From positions 18,814 through 82,813 of the forward strand of contig CANQFA010000005.1 in the NCBI GenBank assembly GCA_947597925.1: a DNA stretch of 64,000 nucleotides. The letters run 5' to 3'. This document shows positions 9,849 through 26,730 of the stretch, in pieces. A model generated the notes under the pieces. The model did not search any database and was not told the DNA's origin. It saw nothing but the letters and a program-made list of their open reading frames with translations. Numbering within the stretch: the stretch's first letter is position 1; each line of letters starts with the position of its first letter. Source of the stretch: an uncultured Clostridia bacterium. Lineage in GTDB: Bacteria; Bacillota; Clostridia; Christensenellales; Borkfalkiaceae. A program made the position numbers and the translations under genes.

Positions 9849-12800
9849 TTATTTGTCTTCCTTCTTTCTGAGCACGAGGAACGCGCCGCCGAGCACGGTG
9901 AGAGCCGCAACAGAAGCTGCGCCGAGGCCGATGATGCCGCCGCAGCCGCCCTTGGCAGCTTCGCCTGCTTCACCCTTCTCGCCCTGAGGGCCTGCGGGAC
10001 CTGCGGGGCCTGCGGGGCCGGCTTCACCGGTGTCGCCCTTGTCGCCTTTCTCGCCCTTGTCGCCTTTCTCGCCCTTGTCGCCTTTCTCGCCCTTGTCGCC
10101 TTTCTCACCCTGAGGGCCGGCGGGGCCTGCGGGGCCTTCCTGCTGCTCAAGGGTATCGATCTGCGTCTGGAGATCGTCGATTTGGGACTGGAGATCATCG
10201 ATGAGATCCTGGAGATCTTCGATCTGGCCCTGGAGACCTTCCACGAGCGGATCGGTGATCGTGAATCTCACGGTAGCCGAAGTCGTGATGAAGTTCTGCC
10301 CGCCCTTGCCGCTCACGGTGATGGTGACATCCACATAGTTCACGACGACAGTCTCACGGCCCTGACGGACGGTGGAGCTCGTCATGGCGAGCGCCGTGCC
10401 GCTGATCATGCCCGTTTCGGGATCGATCGTGAGGCCTGCGGGAAGTCCCGTTGCGCTGTAGGTGTACTGGCCTGCACCGAAGAACTCATCGAGGTACTCG
10501 GTGTTGAAGTATGCGCTTGCATCGGCGGTGACGGTCTGACCCATCCGACCGGTGACAGGCGTGACGGTGCCTGCAGCCTGAGAGGCGATGAAGCCGTTCA
10601 TGGCAGCTGCGCTGTTGACATAGACGTAGAGGATGCGCTTTGCGGTCTCTCTCGTCCAGTACCACTGGGTGTAGTTCTCAGCTCCGTCGACGACGACGGC
10701 GTTCTTCTCCTCATCCCAAGTACCGGCGATGGCGTTGTTGCCCGTTGCATTGCCGAGAGGGAAGGTGAGACCGCGGACCATGCCTGCGCCGGTCCAACCG
10801 GTGTTGAGGCCGCCCTGATAGAAGTCGGTGACGGTTGCGCCGCGATAGCCCCACTCATTGGTGTAGAGCTGGACGTTGAGCGCATAGGATGCGGAGGACT
10901 GGAGGCCGATGTTGTTGAATGCGGACATCATGCCGTTTGCGTGGCCTTCCTTGATAGCAAGCTCGAAAGGCTTCGCATAGATCTCGCGGATCGCCTGCTC
11001 GTTGCAGAAGGTTGCGAGACCATTCATACGTCCAGCTTCCTGATCATTGAGGAATGCGTGCTTGATGTAAACCTTGCCGCCGACTTCGGTGCATCCGCCG
11101 ACGACTGCCGCCGCGATCTTGCCGCCCTGCACGCCGTCCTGCGAGTAGTACTCGAAGTTACGGCCGGAGAGAGGCGTACGGTGAATGTTCATAGCGGGGC
11201 CGTACCAACCGGCGCCTGCGTTCCAGATCTCTTCTTCGCCGACGAGTCTGCCTTCCTTTCTTGCGAGGTCGACATTCCACGTCGCCGCGATGACGGTCTC
11301 ACCGACCCAGAACCAACCGTTGATGTTGTTGGCCTTGAGCTGGCCGGGGCCATCCTGGTCGGTAACTCTCTGCTTACCGATGGTGTCGATCGCCACGTTC
11401 TGGTAGCCGCCTGCGCTGACGAAGGAGACGAGTTCCTGCCAGGTGAGCTGGTCGAGGAGCTTATCCCACTCTGCGCTGTCGTAGTCCTCACCGATCATGT
11501 CCATGATGGTGATTTTGTAGAGCCCGGTCTCTTCATCCGCAACGCCCGTGCCCTGCGTCTTGCCTTCCATGTCCGCCTTGGTCTTGACCCAAACGTTTGC
11601 ATAGTCGGTCTCGGCAGCTTCGGTCACGGCATTGTCGCCGTCCATCGCCACGGTGAAGTTCTTGTGCTGGAAGACGCTTGCCGCTTCCTTCGTGAAGAGA
11701 TTGTCGTTCTTTTCGCCGACGAGCCAGACGAGATCCGTGAGGTCGGAGGGAGCCGACTTGTCTGCATTGAGGAGGCCGTCTCTGTGGAGGTCATGATCGG
11801 TTCCGCTCTTGGTCCAGTGGCTTGCGGAGGTATTGTACATCTCCCAAGGACCGGTGGTCTGCGAGAAGATGTTGTTGGGGGTCTTCGCATCGCCGTCCTC
11901 ATCCCAGGTAAAGAGAGTAGCTGCGTTGAGCGTCTCGCTGTCGAGCACGGTGTGGGAGTTCGATCTCACGGAGAGCACATAGTCGCCGGTCTCGAGCTCG
12001 TAGCCGCTGTTGTCGTTCTTGTTCTTGTCGTTGTAGTCGAAGGAAGCGAGGTCTTTCACCGCGATCTTCACGACCACATCTTCGCTCTCGCCCGCCTCGA
12101 TGACATCGGACTTCGCGAATCCGACGAGGTTGACGGCCGCCTTATCGATGCCGCCTGCCGTGTAAGGAGGGGTGCTGTAGAGCTCCACGACTTCCTTGCC
12201 TGCAGCGGAACCTTCGTTCGTGACGGTGACGGTGACGGTGATCTCGCCGTCCTTATTCGTCAGGTCGCCGGTCACAGACTTGATCTCCTGCGTGAAGGTC
12301 GTGTAGGAGAGGCCATAGCCGAAGGGATAGATGACATTGTCGTCGTACCAGGTGTCGCCCGACTGCGCCTTCGCCGTGTTGAGGTCGGCGGCGACGGTCT
12401 CGTAGTAACGATAGCCCATGAAGATGCCTTCGGAGTAGGAGATGACCGCATTGGAGGGGGTATTCTTCGAGCCCTCTTCCCACGTCATGGAAGGATTGGG
12501 CGTGCCCTTCGAGCCGATGGCCGCAGTTTCGTCGCCGCCGAGCTTGGTGTGATCGTAGGTCTCACCGCCGGTGAGCTCGTAAGTAGCGCCCTCGTAGGTA
12601 CCGAAGTTGTAGTAGGTGGGATCGGTCTTGATGTCCGTCATCCAGATGTCGACGAGACGTCCGGAGGGATTGACTTCACCGGTGAGGAAGTCGCCGAGGA
12701 CTTCGGCGCCGTTCCAGCCGGGGGTACCGATCCAGATGATGGAGTCGAAGGCGTCATCATTCTGGATGTCCGCGATCTCCATGGGAGAAGGCGAGTTGAT

Positions 12801-16023: not shown

Positions 16024-18867
16024 ATGAACGAGAAAAATGTCTTTATCAGCTACGGACACGGCACCCATGACGACGCGGTGAAGCGCCTCGCGGAGGACCT
16101 GCGCGCCTTCGGCTTTCAGGTCTTCCTCGACGTGGACTACTTAAAGCTCGGCGACTGGGAGAGGATCATCGACGAGCACATCCTCTCGTGCAAATATTTC
16201 CTCTTCATGGCATCGGCACGCGCCGTCTCGGAGGCGGGCTACTGTCTCAATGAGCTCTGCCGCGCGGGGGAAAATAACTCCGTCATCGTGCCCGTGATGC
16301 TCGAAAACGTCCTCCTGCCCCTCAGTATCAATAAATTTCAGCGCTTCATCCTCGTCGACTGCTTCGCGCCCGACGGGGAGCTTCTCGAGGCGAAGTACAA
16401 AAAGCTCCTCCTCGACCTTATGAGCGTTCTGAGCGGCAACTACAAGCTCGGCTTTTCCGACCGCGAACTCCGCCTGAAGTCCGCCCTCCGCCCCGTCTCG
16501 TCGCGGAACATGACCTTTAAGTACTACAGCACCTTCTGCGGGCGGCGCGCCGCCTTCCGTGCCTTCGAAAAGTTCCTCACGGGCAATAAAAATTTCTTCT
16601 GGGTGACCTCCCGCCCGGGCATCGGCAAGACGGCCTTCATGAGCATGCTCGCGTGGCGGTACCCCGAGAGCGTGAGCGCGGTGCACTTCTGCAAGTTCAA
16701 TAACTCCGACCGCGTCAATCCCAAAAATATCATCGCCTCCGTCGCCTATCAGCTCGCGGACACCCTGCCCGAGTACAAGGAAAAGCTCCTCAGCCTCATG
16801 GACCTCGACTCCCTCTTCGAGAAGAGTGCCGCGCGCATCTTTGAGTATCTCCTCATCGAGCCCATGCAGGAGCTGCCCGTGACCCGCCCCGTGGTGGTGG
16901 TCATAGACGCCCTCGACGAGTGCTCCTTCCGCGGCGAAAACGAGCTGTGCTCCATCTTTGCGCGGACATTCGAAAATCTGCCCCCATGGCTCAAGTTTGC
17001 CCTGTCCAGCCGCAATGAAGCGGAGATCCGCCGCAGCCTCTTCCCCATCTCTGTCGAGTACACCCTCTCGGAGGATGAGACGGAGGACGACCTCAGGGAA
17101 TACTACCGCGCGCAGTTCCCCGAGGCGCCCGAGATGAAGATCGAGCAGCTCCTCGCGAAGTCGGAGGGGTCCTTCCTCTACGCGAGCGAGATCGCCAAGC
17201 AGATCAAGGACGACAACCTGAGCCTCGACGACATCGACTTCTTCCCCGTGGGCATCTACGGATTTTACAATGACTGCTTCTCGCGCATCTTCGGCACGGC
17301 GAGCGGAGTGGACTATGAGAGCGTGAAGCCCCTGCTCGAGTTCCTCTGCGTCGCGCAGGAGCCCACCGACGTCGACTTCCTCGAGAGCTATCTCGGGTGG
17401 TCGGAATACGATCTCAAGAAGACCCTCGCGCGTATCAGCGGCCTCTTCCCCATCCGCAACGGCTTCATAGAGCCCCTCCATAAGTCGCTCATCGACTGGC
17501 TCACAAACAGCGGAGATGTGGCACAGATCTTCTATATCAGCACCAAAAACGGCTACAGGCGCCTGCTCGAGTACATCGAGCAATACTACGGCGCGGGGGA
17601 CTATACAAATAAGTACGTCATAAAATATTTCGGGTCCACCCTCATCCGCCTCGACAAGTACGACCGCCTCGCGGAAGTGCTCGACAACTACGAATTCCAG
17701 CGGTGTGTCATCGAAAAACTCGACTTCGACTTCGGGCTCGGGCGGTATCTTGCCGAGCTTCTGGAGGTCGCGAACCATCTCCCGCAGCGCTGCGTGGAGC
17801 TCCTGCAGCACCCCACCTTCATCCGCATCTTCTCCGAATACAGGCGCCTCCTCTACAATTCGGGCATGTTCTTCACCCTGAAAAAGTGCGGGCTCTCGGT
17901 GGCCCTCCGTTCGGATACTGCCGACTGGGGCATCGAGGGCGAGATCGGAAAGGTCTTCTACTACTACATCGTGGAGGACTTCGCGCGCGCCATCCGCAAG
18001 GCAAAGACTCTGCTCTCCACCCGCGAGGAGCTCAAGGCAGATGACTACCTGAAGTCCGAGCTCTACAACGTGAAGGGGCTCTCCGAGCGCAAACTCGTCC
18101 TCTTCGACGACGCCATGGAGTCCTTTGACAAGAGCATCGAGTGCATCACCGCGGTCATTGAGGACGACTATGTGCCCGAAAACGGCGACCCCGAGTTCGA
18201 AAAGGGCATGGCGTACCTCATCAAGGGCAAGATCTACCTCCACATGCTCGACTTCCGCGGTGCCAACCGCAGCATCAAGACGGCCATCAAGACGCTGCAG
18301 AGGAAGATAGACGAGATGCCCGAAAACGACAAGCGCATCTCCAACCTTCTCTTCCTCGCCGAGGACTACCGCGTGCTGGCGGACGGATACATCTGGCAGC
18401 GGGAGTTCGAACTCGCCGAGGAATGCCTGCGGGAGTGTGAGACCATCTATGCGGGCAACAAGACATGCAGCGACCGCTACTATATCCGCTATAAGTACAC
18501 GGGGCTCTTCCTCCGCATCATGCGGCGGGAAGCGACGGGCGTGCGGGAAGCGCTCGAGCACATCCTCGACGGGGAGGCGGTGAGCTCTTATGACAAGGGA
18601 CAGGTGCAGTTCTATCTCGCCCTCAATGCCTATCTCAACGAGCGGGAGGACCCCGAGGCAGTCAAGCTCGGCATCAAGCGGGCGAGGGCGGGCGCCGACC
18701 GCTATGACTCCATCGACGCCCATCTCGAGACGGCGGAGTGCGAGCTCGCCGAAAAACTCCTCTCGGAAGTCGCGGGGATATCCTTCCGCTCCGACCGCGA
18801 GGAAAACGAATATATCGACAAGTGGATCGCCTACATCGAGGACGTATTCCGCACGGAGGAAGCATGA
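16024..18867 (+). CDS. TIR domain - STAND/NACHT-like NTPase - TPR protein (putative immune sensor)
   Basis: 947 residues in NLR-like order. TIR domain (1-~140) opens with VFISYGHG and keeps YCLNEL, whose Glu77 aligns with the catalytic Glu of NAD-cleaving TIRs. The NTPase module has Walker A SRPGIGKT (196-203) and Walker B VVVVIDALDEC (290-300), then a winged-helix-like segment; the C-terminal third (~640-930) is helical and TPR-like. TIR-STAND proteins in bacteria are known or suspected antiphage effectors: ligand binding by repeats triggers oligomerisation and NAD+ depletion or signal production. GGGAG precedes the ATG. The stop overlaps the next gene (ATGA), so the pair is co-translated. 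Confidence 0.88.
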   Translation: MNEKNVFISYGHGTHDDAVKRLAEDLRAFGFQVFLDVDYLKLGDWERIIDEHILSCKYFLFMASARAVSEAGYCLNELCRAGENNSVIVPVMLENVLLPLSINKFQRFILVDCFAPDGELLEAKYKKLLLDLMSVLSGNYKLGFSDRELRLKSALRPVSSRNMTFKYYSTFCGRRAAFRAFEKFLTGNKNFFWVTSRPGIGKTAFMSMLAWRYPESVSAVHFCKFNNSDRVNPKNIIASVAYQLADTLPEYKEKLLSLMDLDSLFEKSAARIFEYLLIEPMQELPVTRPVVVVIDALDECSFRGENELCSIFARTFENLPPWLKFALSSRNEAEIRRSLFPISVEYTLSEDETEDDLREYYRAQFPEAPEMKIEQLLAKSEGSFLYASEIAKQIKDDNLSLDDIDFFPVGIYGFYNDCFSRIFGTASGVDYESVKPLLEFLCVAQEPTDVDFLESYLGWSEYDLKKTLARISGLFPIRNGFIEPLHKSLIDWLTNSGDVAQIFYISTKNGYRRLLEYIEQYYGAGDYTNKYVIKYFGSTLIRLDKYDRLAEVLDNYEFQRCVIEKLDFDFGLGRYLAELLEVANHLPQRCVELLQHPTFIRIFSEYRRLLYNSGMFFTLKKCGLSVALRSDTADWGIEGEIGKVFYYYIVEDFARAIRKAKTLLSTREELKADDYLKSELYNVKGLSERKLVLFDDAMESFDKSIECITAVIEDDYVPENGDPEFEKGMAYLIKGKIYLHMLDFRGANRSIKTAIKTLQRKIDEMPENDKRISNLLFLAEDYRVLADGYIWQREFELAEECLRECETIYAGNKTCSDRYYIRYKYTGLFLRIMRREATGVREALEHILDGEAVSSYDKGQVQFYLALNAYLNEREDPEAVKLGIKRARAGADRYDSIDAHLETAECELAEKLLSEVAGISFRSDREENEYIDKWIAYIEDVFRTEEA

Positions 18868-21893: not shown

Positions 21894-22145
21894 AAAAGTT
21901 GGACAAAAGTGTTTCATTTTATGACTGTCTTTTTGCCATTTTTGCTTTCCTGCCAGACTTGAACTGACGACATCTAATTTTTTTCAAAAAAATATACAAA
22001 AATATGATAGACTAATCGGACGAGCGTTGTATTACACGGCGGCTCGTTTTTTGTAAGAACGGGTAGTCGGCATAGAGTCGAGCAATTAGAATTTATCTTG
22101 TAACGCGAGAGAGGGGAGTAGGGCAGTCATTTGGTGAGTCAAAGA
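21894..22145. other. AT-rich segment between the two 119-bp repeats
   Basis: No gene seen. It holds a tRNA T-arm-like fragment on the minus strand at 21952-21968 (GTCAG, loop TTCAAGT, CTGGC; same loop as the neighbouring tRNA-Pro), a short hairpin near 22020-22050 followed by a T-run, and the motif CAGTCATTTGGTGA, the inverse of a motif inside the repeats. This looks like a scar of integration or duplication at the tRNA. Confidence 0.45.
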
Positions 22146-22264
22146 CATCTTTCATTCACCAAATGACTGTTGGTGAATAAAAAGAGCGAGATTATTCAAA
22201 TCTCGCTTCTTTTTATGCAATTTAACACATAAAACATACTGTTTATGCAAGTTTTATACGGTCA
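22146..22264 (+). repeat. 119-bp direct repeat, copy 2
   Basis: Second copy of the tRNA-adjacent repeat, same length, including the terminator hairpin. Copies 371 bp apart could be att-site remnants or a tandem duplication. Confidence 0.9.
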
Positions 22265-22980: not shown

Positions 22981-23772
22981 ATGTGGGGAGCTATCATCGG
23001 CGATATCGTTGGCAGCCGCTTTGAATTTGCCAACACGTACAGGACAGATTTCAGCCTGTTCAGCAACAACTGTTTCTTTACGGACGACACCGTGTGCACC
23101 GTGGCGGTGGCAGAGGCGCTCTTGCGTTTCGGGGACGCGGGCGAGGAGACCTTCAAAAGGGAACTCGTACGCCTCTTGCGGGAATATGTAAACCGCTATC
23201 CGAACGGCGGCTATGGCGGGAGATTCCTCCGTTGGGCAATCGATGGAAACATGGGCCCCTACAACAGCTTTGGGAACGGCTCCGCAATGCGCGTTTCGCC
23301 CGTCTCCTGGTACGCAAAGAGCCTCGAAGAGGCGGAATATTTCGCAAAGCTGACGGCGGAGGTCACCCATAACCATCCCGAGGGGATCAAGGGCGCCGTC
23401 GCCGTGGCGGGCGCGGGGTTCCTCGCGCGAACGGGAAAGACGAAGGAGGAGATCGGGGCCTATCTCGAACATTATTATTCCTTCGGGATCTCTTGTGACG
23501 AATGGCGGGCAAAGCGGATGCCCTTCGACGAGACCTGTCAAGGCACAGTCCCCATTGCGATGGAGTGCTTTCTTGAAGCGGAGAACTTCGAGGCCACCGT
23601 GCGTCTTGCCGTCTCGATGGGCGGGGATTCGGATACGATCGCGGCGATGGCAGGCGGCGTCGCGGGGGCATTTTACGGTGTGGATGGATCGCATCAACAA
23701 CTCGCGCGGCGCTATCTCGATGAGGAGCTGCTCGCCGTCATCGATGATTTCATCGGGAAATATTGCAAATAA
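22981..23772 (+). CDS. ADP-ribosylglycohydrolase (DraG family)
   Basis: 263 residues. The DraG-family dinuclear metal motifs are complete: GDIVGSRFE at the N-terminus, FTDDT (~36), and SMGGDSDTIAAMAG near the C-terminus. Such enzymes remove ADP-ribose from Arg, Ser or nucleic-acid targets or cleave ADP-ribosyl metabolites. GAGGAG lies 9 nt before the ATG. Its operon partner is the interrupted gene just upstream. Length is typical for the family. No ADP-ribosyltransferase is visible nearby, so the target is unknown; it may counter a toxin or NAD-linked stress signal. Confidence 0.88.
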   Translation: MWGAIIGDIVGSRFEFANTYRTDFSLFSNNCFFTDDTVCTVAVAEALLRFGDAGEETFKRELVRLLREYVNRYPNGGYGGRFLRWAIDGNMGPYNSFGNGSAMRVSPVSWYAKSLEEAEYFAKLTAEVTHNHPEGIKGAVAVAGAGFLARTGKTKEEIGAYLEHYYSFGISCDEWRAKRMPFDETCQGTVPIAMECFLEAENFEATVRLAVSMGGDSDTIAAMAGGVAGAFYGVDGSHQQLARRYLDEELLAVIDDFIGKYCK

Positions 23773-23839: not shown

Positions 23840-24145
23840 TTAAACTTCGTGCGTTTTGATCCAAATGAGAAGATCCTCATACTTCATTTCACTTTTGGCG
23901 AGAGAAAGCCCGATTTCAATGAGCTCCTCATCCGTCGCTTCCAAAGAGATGCCGTTGACTTCGAGGAAGGTCAAAAGCACATAAACGCCGATGCGCTTGT
24001 TTCCGTCCACAAAGGCATGGTTGGAGACGAGCCCCGCACAGAGCCTTGCCGCCTTTTCCTCTTTCGTGGGGAAGAGGTCTTTTCCGTCGAAGGTCATATA
24101 GGGGGCTTCGAGTGCAGATTCCAATAAGCCGACATCGCGGTGCAT
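23840..24145 (-). CDS. Doc/Fic-family toxin, N-terminally truncated
   Basis: 101 residues matching the C-terminal part of death-on-curing proteins: GLLESALEAP, then HAFVDGNKRIG (Fic motif HxFxDGNKR, intact), then the helical tail. Doc enzymes phosphorylate or AMPylate targets such as EF-Tu. Family members carry about 25-30 extra N-terminal residues before RDxGLLESAL; here the frame is closed by a stop just upstream, so the start is lost or remodelled. No recognisable Phd antitoxin precedes it, only a 39-codon ORF. Probably a decaying toxin gene. Confidence 0.65.
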   Translation of the reverse strand: MHRDVGLLESALEAPYMTFDGKDLFPTKEEKAARLCAGLVSNHAFVDGNKRIGVYVLLTFLEVNGISLEATDEELIEIGLSLAKSEMKYEDLLIWIKTHEV

Positions 24146-24313: not shown

Positions 24314-24342
24314 TTGACAAGCCTGATGAGACTTGCTATAAT
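24314..24342 (+). promoter_or_regulatory. Near-consensus promoter of the TerB-RiPP operon
   Basis: TTGACA (24314-24319), 17-bp spacer, TATAAT (24337-24342): a full consensus match. It likely drives the TerB-like gene, the precursor peptide and the radical SAM gene together. Confidence 0.85.
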
Positions 24343-24402
24343 GTAACCACAAGCAAGATGCTTGTGATCTTAATTAAAATGTCTTATTGAGGAGCCAAAA
24401 AG

Positions 24403-24822
24403 ATGAATTGGACGGAAAAGTACGAGGAATTTCTTCACTATTCCAAAGAAGACCTTCTGAAGTTCGGCTGCGAGACCGGATCGAAATTGATTTCTTTAAT
24501 GGATAAAAAGTATGGAGATCAAGATAAATCCTTCGCGGTATTCATGAAAATCTATGGGACATTTGTGGCCATAGACCTGGATGTAAAGCAGGAAGAATAT
24601 GAGATGTTTGAAAGGATAAGCGGAGTGTCGGCATCGTATAATGAGTTCAAGGATGCGGTAAAGCAGGCCTATAACTTTGATGTGGTCACTGAGGTTGACA
24701 ACCTTGTGGATGCCGACGATGAGATGAAGGAATTAGTGATCCGTTTGGGGCTTATAATTTGCGCGTATGACGGCGAGATAAGTGCCGAGGAGAAAGCATT
24801 GATCGAAAGATATTGGAATTGA
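24403..24822 (+). CDS. TerB-like protein
   Basis: 139 residues, helical and acidic. The C-terminal LGLIICAYDGEISAEEKALIERY carries the TerB-type signature (A.xDGxIxxxE). TerB-like domains occur with tellurite-resistance, stress and phage-defence loci; the biochemical role is unclear. GAGGAG is 9 nt before the ATG. The gene lies 64 bp upstream of the precursor peptide with no terminator between, so it is probably co-transcribed. Base composition is AT-richer than the chromosome on either side, like the rest of this operon. Confidence 0.65.
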   Translation: MNWTEKYEEFLHYSKEDLLKFGCETGSKLISLMDKKYGDQDKSFAVFMKIYGTFVAIDLDVKQEEYEMFERISGVSASYNEFKDAVKQAYNFDVVTEVDNLVDADDEMKELVIRLGLIICAYDGEISAEEKALIERYWN

Positions 24823-24886: not shown

Positions 24887-25057
24887 ATGAAAAAATTGAT
24901 CTGCAATGTATTTGATGATAATGATTTTGAGGACAGACCGCGCGAAACAGTATCAATGTCCAGTTGTCGTGGTTGGTCCAGAATTCGGTTTAACGTTGTA
25001 AAAATGTCCAGTTGTCGTGGTTGGTGCAAAATTGCATTATATGCAGCCAAATTTTGA
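24887..25057 (+). CDS. RiPP-type precursor peptide with duplicated MSSCRGW core
   Basis: 56 residues. A charged leader of ~23 residues (MKKLICNVFDDNDFED...) precedes two core-like units, MSSCRGWSRIRF (24-35) and MSSCRGWCKIAL (40-51), with Cys27, Cys43 and Cys47 and Trp30/Trp46 as candidate modification sites. The duplication is also exact in DNA (24956-24977 and 25004-25025). GTGAGG is 6 nt before the ATG. The radical SAM gene starts 12 bp after the stop. Leader plus repeated Cys/Trp core plus adjacent radical SAM/SPASM enzyme is the standard layout of radical SAM-modified RiPPs. I do not recognise the core family. Confidence 0.75.
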   Translation: MKKLICNVFDDNDFEDRPRETVSMSSCRGWSRIRFNVVKMSSCRGWCKIALYAAKF

Positions 25058-25069
25058 CGGTGACTGTAT

Positions 25070-26344
25070 ATGAGAGTGCTGCTGTATCCTCCTTATTTGC
25101 AGTGGGAAGTAATTTCCGATTGTAATCACAAGTGCATACATTGTTATAACTATTGGCGCGCTCATAATATACCTGTAGAAAACTGTACGGAATTTGAAGC
25201 CATAACAGATGCGATCATCGAACGAAAGCCTCTTTATGTCGCCATCACCGGCGGAGAACCGCTTCTGGTCTTTCCGAAAGTCAAAGAGTCCATCATAAAG
25301 ATGACAGATGCGGGGATCGTTTGTTCCATATCAACGAATGGGACGCTGATAACCGAAGAAATCGCTCGATTCTTAGAAGAGCGGAAAGTGGATCTGGTGA
25401 TTTCGCTGCCGTCAATCGATGAAAAGATATGCGATGCGGTGTGCACGGCAAAAAATGTCGTAAAAAAGTTATCTGACGTGTGGCCTTTGTTAAAGAGTCA
25501 CAATATACAGACCAACATCAATGTTGTCGTAAACAAGTTGAATATATCAACATTATACCAAACGTTGCAAGCGATCAAGGAACTTGGTTTTATTGCTCGC
25601 GTGGGTGTAGCACAGCGTCCGATCAATGCCTCTGCAGAATATTCTGAATATGAGTTGGACAAGAGTGATTTCCGGTTTATTGTAAGCGAATGTATCAGGG
25701 CGAAAAAGGAACTGGGGCTCTCGTTGGATTTTTCGGTTTGTCTCCCTGACTGCGCATTCAGAGATTTGCGGGAATTAGATGAACTGGAAAAGGGTGATTG
25801 TTTCGCGGGGACTATCGCATATGCGATTTGCACAAATGGCGATGTAAAGGCTTGTCAGTGCGATACACGCGTCTACGGCAATATTCTAACAGATGATTTC
25901 GGCGAAATCTACCGAAGAATGGCCGAATGGCGCGATGGGAGCTATTTGCCGAAAGAGTGTAAGGGCTGTAGCAGATTGTCAACATGCCGAGGCGGTTGCA
26001 GAGTCGAATCATATGCAAACGAAAATAGCTATCGTGCTTTACCGTCGTTTGCAGATCCGAACAATGTTCCCGAGATTGTAGAAAACGACGTGGTTGATTA
26101 TTCTGACGTCAAAGAAATTGCTGTGGCGCCGCAAGCGATTTTTTTGAAAGATAAAGAATGTTATCGTGTTTCAGTTGGAATTGTTGCTATGTATCTACAT
26201 GACGAATTCGCCGAATGGTTGCAGGAGAATTCCAAATTTAGTTTCGAACAACTGCGTCAAGCGACCGAATTGGAGAGCGATGAACTAAATGTGGTGATAG
26301 ACACGCTTTGCAAGAACGGCATTCTTGTTGCGCGTCAGGTATAG
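25070..26344 (+). CDS. Radical SAM/SPASM peptide maturase
   Basis: 424 residues. The SAM-binding [4Fe-4S] motif is CNHKCIHC (Cys18, Cys22, Cys25), followed by ITGGEPLL and ISTNGTLI. The SPASM half has a Cys-rich set (CQCD, ECKGCSRLSTCRGGC) for auxiliary clusters. The last ~90 residues form a helix-turn-helix-like domain (FSFEQLRQATELESDELNVVIDTLCKNGIL) that could bind the leader peptide. SPASM enzymes next to short peptides install thioether, C-C or C-O cross-links. The likely substrate is the MSSCRGW peptide 12 bp upstream. No transporter or protease gene is in the operon. Confidence 0.88.
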   Translation: MRVLLYPPYLQWEVISDCNHKCIHCYNYWRAHNIPVENCTEFEAITDAIIERKPLYVAITGGEPLLVFPKVKESIIKMTDAGIVCSISTNGTLITEEIARFLEERKVDLVISLPSIDEKICDAVCTAKNVVKKLSDVWPLLKSHNIQTNINVVVNKLNISTLYQTLQAIKELGFIARVGVAQRPINASAEYSEYELDKSDFRFIVSECIRAKKELGLSLDFSVCLPDCAFRDLRELDELEKGDCFAGTIAYAICTNGDVKACQCDTRVYGNILTDDFGEIYRRMAEWRDGSYLPKECKGCSRLSTCRGGCRVESYANENSYRALPSFADPNNVPEIVENDVVDYSDVKEIAVAPQAIFLKDKECYRVSVGIVAMYLHDEFAEWLQENSKFSFEQLRQATELESDELNVVIDTLCKNGILVARQV

Positions 26345-26701: not shown

Positions 26702-26730
26702 TTGACATCTGCGTGCGAGCGTGGTATAAT
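26702..26730 (+). promoter_or_regulatory. Consensus promoter upstream of the gene at 26792
   Basis: TTGACA (26702-26707), 17-bp spacer, TATAAT (26725-26730). Confidence 0.85.

Follow-up and report, generated by a model that had tools for sequence, protein, structure and literature searches.

A conserved SCRGW peptide encoded beside a radical SAM/SPASM enzyme: a candidate new kind of modified peptide

A 64-kb stretch of DNA from an uncultured Clostridia bacterium (contig CANQFA010000005.1; hereafter the window) carries a short peptide gene with two copies of the motif SCRGW, followed at once by a gene for a radical S-adenosylmethionine (SAM)/SPASM enzyme. The pair recurs in a second phylum. 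The peptide matches no family in the catalogues NCBIfam and Pfam and probably represents a new type of modified peptide. As for its chemistry, we tentatively favour a reading in which the enzyme would connect Trp and the Lys or Arg at +2 by a carbon-carbon bond within each unit, giving a three-residue ring. A thioether formed by the conserved Cys is a close rival. In what follows, we describe the peptide family and its conserved unit, then its recurrence beside homologous enzymes, and finally weigh the possible links and the surroundings of the gene pair.

The precursor peptide and its conserved unit

The 56-aa precursor reads MKKLICNVFDDNDFEDRPRETVSMSSCRGWSRIRFNVVKMSSCRGWCKIALYAAKF. A GAGG lies upstream of its start codon, and 12 bp on the same strand separate its stop from the start of the radical SAM/SPASM open reading frame (ORF). 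An earlier note on this DNA had described a 56-residue ORF with a radical SAM/SPASM gene 12 bp downstream; both were confirmed (24887-25057 and 25070-26344, both +). The exact DNA duplication that it had also reported (24956-24977, 25004-25025) is real and one base longer than given, at 23 nt (24955-24977 and 25003-25025). Exact 20-nt repeats spaced by at most 200 nt occur at three places in the window, compared with none in 50 first-order Markov simulations; the remaining close exact repeats lie at 10033-10088 (18-nt period) and 22119-22147 (151-nt spacing). The coordinates of the features are collected in the table.

Features of the window and Cys-rich peptides of related loci (positions in the window unless a locus is named)
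Feature	Position	Strand	Remark
Promoter-like TTGACA-17-TATAAT	24314..24342	+	12/12 consensus matches, TG before second hexamer; predicted
8-bp inverted repeat directly after promoter	24348..24366	+	possible operator; RNA fold z -1.96
Weakly TerB-like ORF	24403..24822	+	139 aa; TerB E 0.032, under cut-off; first gene of presumed transcript
Precursor peptide ORF	24887..25057	+	ATG start, 56 aa, two core units
Leader box MKKLICNVF	24887..24913	+	family consensus MKxLVFNVF (alignment)
Core unit 1, SCRGWSRI	24962..24985	+	
Core unit 2, SCRGWCKI	25010..25033	+	
Radical SAM/SPASM peptide maturase (putative)	25070..26344	+	424 aa
CxxxCxxC of SAM-binding cluster (C18, C22, C25)	25121..25144	+	present in 37/38 clade rows
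SPASM region C244-C310	25799..25999	+	includes clade-specific C264
C-terminal domain (residues 342-424)	26093..26341	+	fold like RiPP recognition element; predicted model
Cys-rich peptide	L004:7311-7475		
Cys-rich peptide	L006:1765-1884		
Cys-rich peptide	L007:7280-7435		
Cys-rich peptide	L008:7324-7452		
Cys-rich peptide	L010:7272-7469		
Cys-rich peptide	L011:7324-7455		
Cys-rich peptide	L012:4440-4568		

A protein search with the peptide returned one clear relative and one weak one besides the window's own, and a five-row profile search returned 23 proteins. In the resulting alignment of 25 precursors, which includes those of two Synergistales loci (L002 and L003), S26, C27, R28, G29, W30 and I33 are invariant and the first unit reads S-C-R-G-W-x-x-I throughout (25/25). 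Part of this invariance is a product of the protein search, which requires shared five-residue words; L002 and L003 are free of the bias because they were found through the enzyme alone. Across the family, the conserved unit is S-C-R-G-W-[S/C/A]-[K/R]-I. Its flanking positions were counted in 43 core units picked by the letters SCRGW, which these units therefore contain by construction, leaving only the flanks informative. The residue at +1 after Trp is S (28), C (13) or A (2), the one at +2 is K (37) or R (6), and the next is I in every unit. Eighteen precursors hold two units, spaced 17 residues apart in 16 of them, and the other seven hold one. From the earlier note's MSSCRGW unit, the repeated SCRGW motif thus stands; what is conserved is SCRGW-x-[KR]-I, which is not always duplicated. 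Likewise, the extra Cys pointed out in the second unit is present, as one of the three residues found at that position.

Codon comparisons speak to the level at which the unit is kept. Over nine codons, window unit 1 has 7 and 6 synonymous changes relative to the two L003 units and no replacement, and the L003 units differ from each other by 7 synonymous changes and no replacement. Between window unit 2 and the L003 units there are 5 synonymous changes and 2 replacements; pairs involving L002 show 3 synonymous changes and 2 to 3 replacements. The replacements between loci (up to 3) affect the first residue and x-[KR]. On this codon evidence, the core unit is preserved at the protein level. A chance or purely DNA-level repeat was rejected because the divergence is mostly synonymous and relatives exist. 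That the ORF arose by chance or is regulatory, its peptide staying unmodified, is very improbable: it is short and belongs to no curated family, but it has 24 relatives, its units diverge between phyla mostly by synonymous codons, and the enzyme beside it is predicted to have a domain resembling the recognition element of ribosomally synthesized and post-translationally modified peptides (RiPPs).

The earlier note had recognized no known family here, and the catalogues agree. The best matches of the precursors have E values of 0.08 (NCBIfam) and 0.017 (Pfam), no family of either covers the peptide, and none of the 25 precursors matches the SCIFF models in NCBIfam at E 0.1. In the literature text searched, a coverage outside which preprint-only and most subscription papers lie, SCRGW occurs in one of 5.39 million papers, which is about binding to major histocompatibility complex molecules; CRGW occurs in 64, and among the 15 listed none is on a radical SAM peptide by its title.

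Recurrence beside homologous enzymes

The check proposed in the earlier note, a search for short SCRGW ORFs upstream of homologues of the enzyme, gave a positive answer. An SCRGW peptide stands directly before the enzyme in all three intact close-homologue loci with DNA, namely the window, L002 (Fretibacterium sp.) and L003, the last two being Synergistales and hence of a second phylum relative to the window. In addition, 22 further precursor clusters were compared with 37 enzyme clusters by the length of their longest contigs, and 10 of the 22 agree exactly with an enzyme cluster; among the other contigs, five are too short for both genes. One more locus, L013, is left out of the three-locus count: its 31-residue match is an enzyme remnant without SCRGW. 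The related radical SAM gene there (L013:5274-5447) is broken: it retains just its initial portion, after which the reading frame ends prematurely. When the window and the loci, 441,528 bases in all, were scanned in six frames, SCRGW turned up in the three precursors, in overlapping copies of the same loci, and nowhere else.

We compared the proteins of the window between 15 and 40 kb with those of L002 and L003 (blastp, 1e-4). The enzyme is common to all three and the precursor to L002 and L003, the other matches are antisense to the enzyme or precursor, and no partner gene besides the cassette is common to the three loci. Only enzyme and precursor being shared, the shared cassette therefore consists of two genes. 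In L002 and L003, a terminator-like hairpin with a short T run lies between peptide and enzyme (L002:5937-5971, -22.6 kcal/mol, z -4.7; L003:5932-5962, -16.4 kcal/mol, z -3.5), as if more peptide than enzyme were to be made; the 12-bp gap of the window holds no such hairpin.

The enzyme is rare. At E 1e-40, one of 396 genomes of the window's order has a match, and at E 1e-60 one of 398 genomes of its phylum, in both cases the window's own genome. At E 1e-60, two of 180 genomes of L003's order and two of 185 of its phylum match, and these are L002 and L003 themselves. A wide spread of the enzyme was rejected on these strict counts; looser radical SAM matches (E 0.001) are common, occurring in 47 of 61 relatives. 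Carriage as phage or plasmid cargo was also rejected, given that a tblastn search of viral_contigs found no relative among 48 pattern stretches and that identity to the records matched was 26-29% for the 10 listed of 47 plasmid records and 24-25% for the four phage records.

The enzyme and its possible cross-links

A tree of 124 tips was built and rooted at its midpoint, with 38 close enzymes and 86 others (P rows of at most 380 aa left out). The 38, chosen by identity rank, are those of the window, L002, L003 and the rest of P0005-P0040; for 13 of them, the accompanying precursor was observed. They form a clade with support 1.0. C228, C244, C262, C297, C300, C306 and C310 are Cys in all 38 clade rows and all 86 others, while C264 is specific to the clade (38/38 vs 2/86). 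C224 was considered as a second clade-specific Cys, its column holding Cys in 5 of the 86 others; a recount by distance undid this, as 52 of the 86 carry a Cys 2-6 residues before C228 (43 shifted by one), and C264 alone stands. The C-terminal domain of the enzyme is predicted to have a fold like a RiPP recognition element (RRE), yet other winged-helix-like domains score equally high, and a PDB sequence search with this domain returned nothing at E 10.

In the reading that we tentatively favour, this RRE-like domain would hold the leader of the precursor, and the leader box MKKLICNVF, conserved in the alignment, is likely what the enzyme recognizes. The enzyme would then link Trp and the +2 Lys or Arg in each unit, with a loss of 2 Da per unit; the conserved Cys would remain free or make a second link, and the leader would be removed by a protease encoded elsewhere. 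The link is favoured because a Trp, a small residue and a Lys or Arg match the linkage pattern of DarE and XncB. As a residue pattern only, W-[SCA]-[KR] occurs in 43/43 units. DarE links W3 to K5 in darobactin, where one precursor cluster has WNWx(K/R)xF (PMC9055067), XncB joins Trp with Arg or Asn at i+2 (PMC11002830), and Trp and Lys are joined in WGK. PMC9062424 and PMC7470986 were further sources. Triceptides and darobactin (XncB, OscB, DarE) are alike in pairing a radical SAM/SPASM enzyme with a short precursor that has Lys or Arg at +2 from Trp (PMC11002830, PMC9055067); the window's system differs in having SCRG before the Trp, no adjacent transporter gene and a C-terminal RRE-like domain. 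Of the earlier note's layout of a radical SAM-modified peptide, the RiPP reading is thus supported, the precursor gene being conserved with the enzyme, while W-x-[KR] points to a triceptide/darobactin kind of link rather than to a ranthipeptide or streptide one, with a thioether still a close rival.

More distant enzymes show a different arrangement. Of nine loci with enzymes 27-34% identical to that of the window, seven have a short Cys-rich peptide without SCRGW directly downstream of the enzyme, in contrast to the window; L005 and L009 have no believable one. The enzymes are 34% identical in L004, L006 and L007, where the peptides have FFVN-type leaders, and 27-31% identical in L008, L010, L011 and L012. 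Five of the seven peptides were scanned and matched no NCBIfam family. These loci are likely further radical SAM peptide families, including ones in Saccharibacteria (L007), Shapirobacteria (L010) and Yonathbacteria (L011).

Several observations weigh against the Trp-Lys/Arg ring. The Cys matches the Trp in conservation (25/25 first units), and indeed Ser, Cys, Arg and Gly are all as constant as Trp, which the ring leaves unexplained. Among the best 25 of 78 characterized families, the window enzyme falls below every cut-off (best NirJ2, 85.6 of 500) and thus outside the curated cyclophane-forming families (DynA, 41.7 of 450 bits). Related enzymes adjoin Cys-rich peptides in those seven of nine loci and, of the four such enzymes scanned, those of L004 (85 bits) and L006 (77 bits) score best against the thioether former PapB (cut-off 340), those of L008 and L010 against AhbD. 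Lastly, PMC8326336 describes an auxiliary cluster site left open in the thioether formers CteB and SkfB and none open in SuiB, PqqE and AnSME. Since the Cys counts of the SPASM span overlap (9-11 in the 38 clade rows vs 7-11 in the 86 others), the cysteine-count argument for closed clusters here is weak, a minor point; a Cys within 30 residues after C310 occurs in 45 of the 86 others vs 5 of the 38.

The close rival is a ranthipeptide-like thioether, in which the sulphur of the SCRGW Cys would be bonded to a carbon of a residue close by (e.g. Trp at +3 or Lys/Arg at +5), and which we regard as possible but doubtful. The acceptors in the sources consulted are Asp, Glu, Asn and Thr, and none of these is conserved near the Cys in the 25 precursors. 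Moreover, the PapB model gives the window enzyme 56.2 of 340 bits, which places it outside that family. The unit, with one conserved Cys and no conserved acid, Asn or Thr as acceptor, also differs from those of ranthipeptides and SCIFF (CteB, PapB), and the RRE is N-terminal in CteB, whereas the RRE-like domain is C-terminal here (PMC8326336 for CteB). A thioether and a Trp-Lys/Arg bond might also both be made in each unit by one enzyme, for a loss of 4 Da. This is quite improbable: Cys and W-x-[KR] are both conserved, and DarE makes two kinds of link (PMC9055067), but there is a single enzyme and no partner gene is common to the three loci.

A streptide-like or other link, tying Trp to the Ser at -4 or to the Arg at -2, is unlikely. 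In streptide, a Lys sits four residues before the Trp; here that position is Ser in 25/25 first units, and the sources consulted offer no Ser-Trp example. The leader also differs from those of streptide (SuiB) and WGK.

Genomic surroundings and possible role

The weakly TerB-like ORF ends 64 bp before the precursor and may share its transcript. Seven of 60 relatives match it, weakly and all within the same genus, and it has no relative beside L002 or L003. A consensus promoter scan gave 7 promoter-like sites vs 4.5 expected; a second full-consensus TTGACA-17-TATAAT with TG lies on the other side of the cassette (26702-26730). The guanine plus cytosine content is 41-46% at 24.0-26.5 kb, compared with 53-65% at 27-34 kb and 57-64% at 18-21 kb, which hints at acquired DNA without proving it, 21.5-22.5 kb also being low (40-43%). 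A Fic/DOC gene (23840-24145) and an ADP-ribosylglycohydrolase gene (22981-23772) adjoin the low stretch. Elsewhere, a 947-aa ORF (16024-18867) has an N-terminus that is TIR-like by eye (VFISYGH...), and the host encodes Spo0A (Spo0A_C, E 1.3e-39), which makes it a likely Firmicute.

Neither the window's genome (94.9% complete) nor the L002 and L003 genomes (of unstated completeness) yielded a match to a C39 peptidase (exporter-protease), compared with 8 of 14 control genomes that did. Peptidase_MA_2 gave no match in the window's genome, nor in any control, and is hence uninformative. Peptidase_MA_2-like genes, perhaps leader proteases, lie on the opposite strand beside the related enzyme of L006 (1928-2389, 31.2 bits) and the remnant of L013 (4473-5141, 33.3 bits; cut-off 32.4). 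The constant core, the lack of an exporter match and the rare occurrence across two phyla together leave room for an intracellular role. At its furthest, and as a long shot, one enzyme would double-bridge the SCRGW unit, and the mature peptide would have an intracellular function, that of a redox cofactor or a metal ligand, like pyrroloquinoline quinone or mycofactocin, its two-gene cassette having moved between phyla.

If this reading is right, a precursor and maturase family absent from the two catalogues searched would be gained, with a core constant enough that one co-expression could settle its chemistry. Because related enzymes stand beside Cys-rich peptides, the pair would also let one ask how a radical SAM family shifts between substrates and, perhaps, how it moves between thioether and carbon-carbon chemistry.
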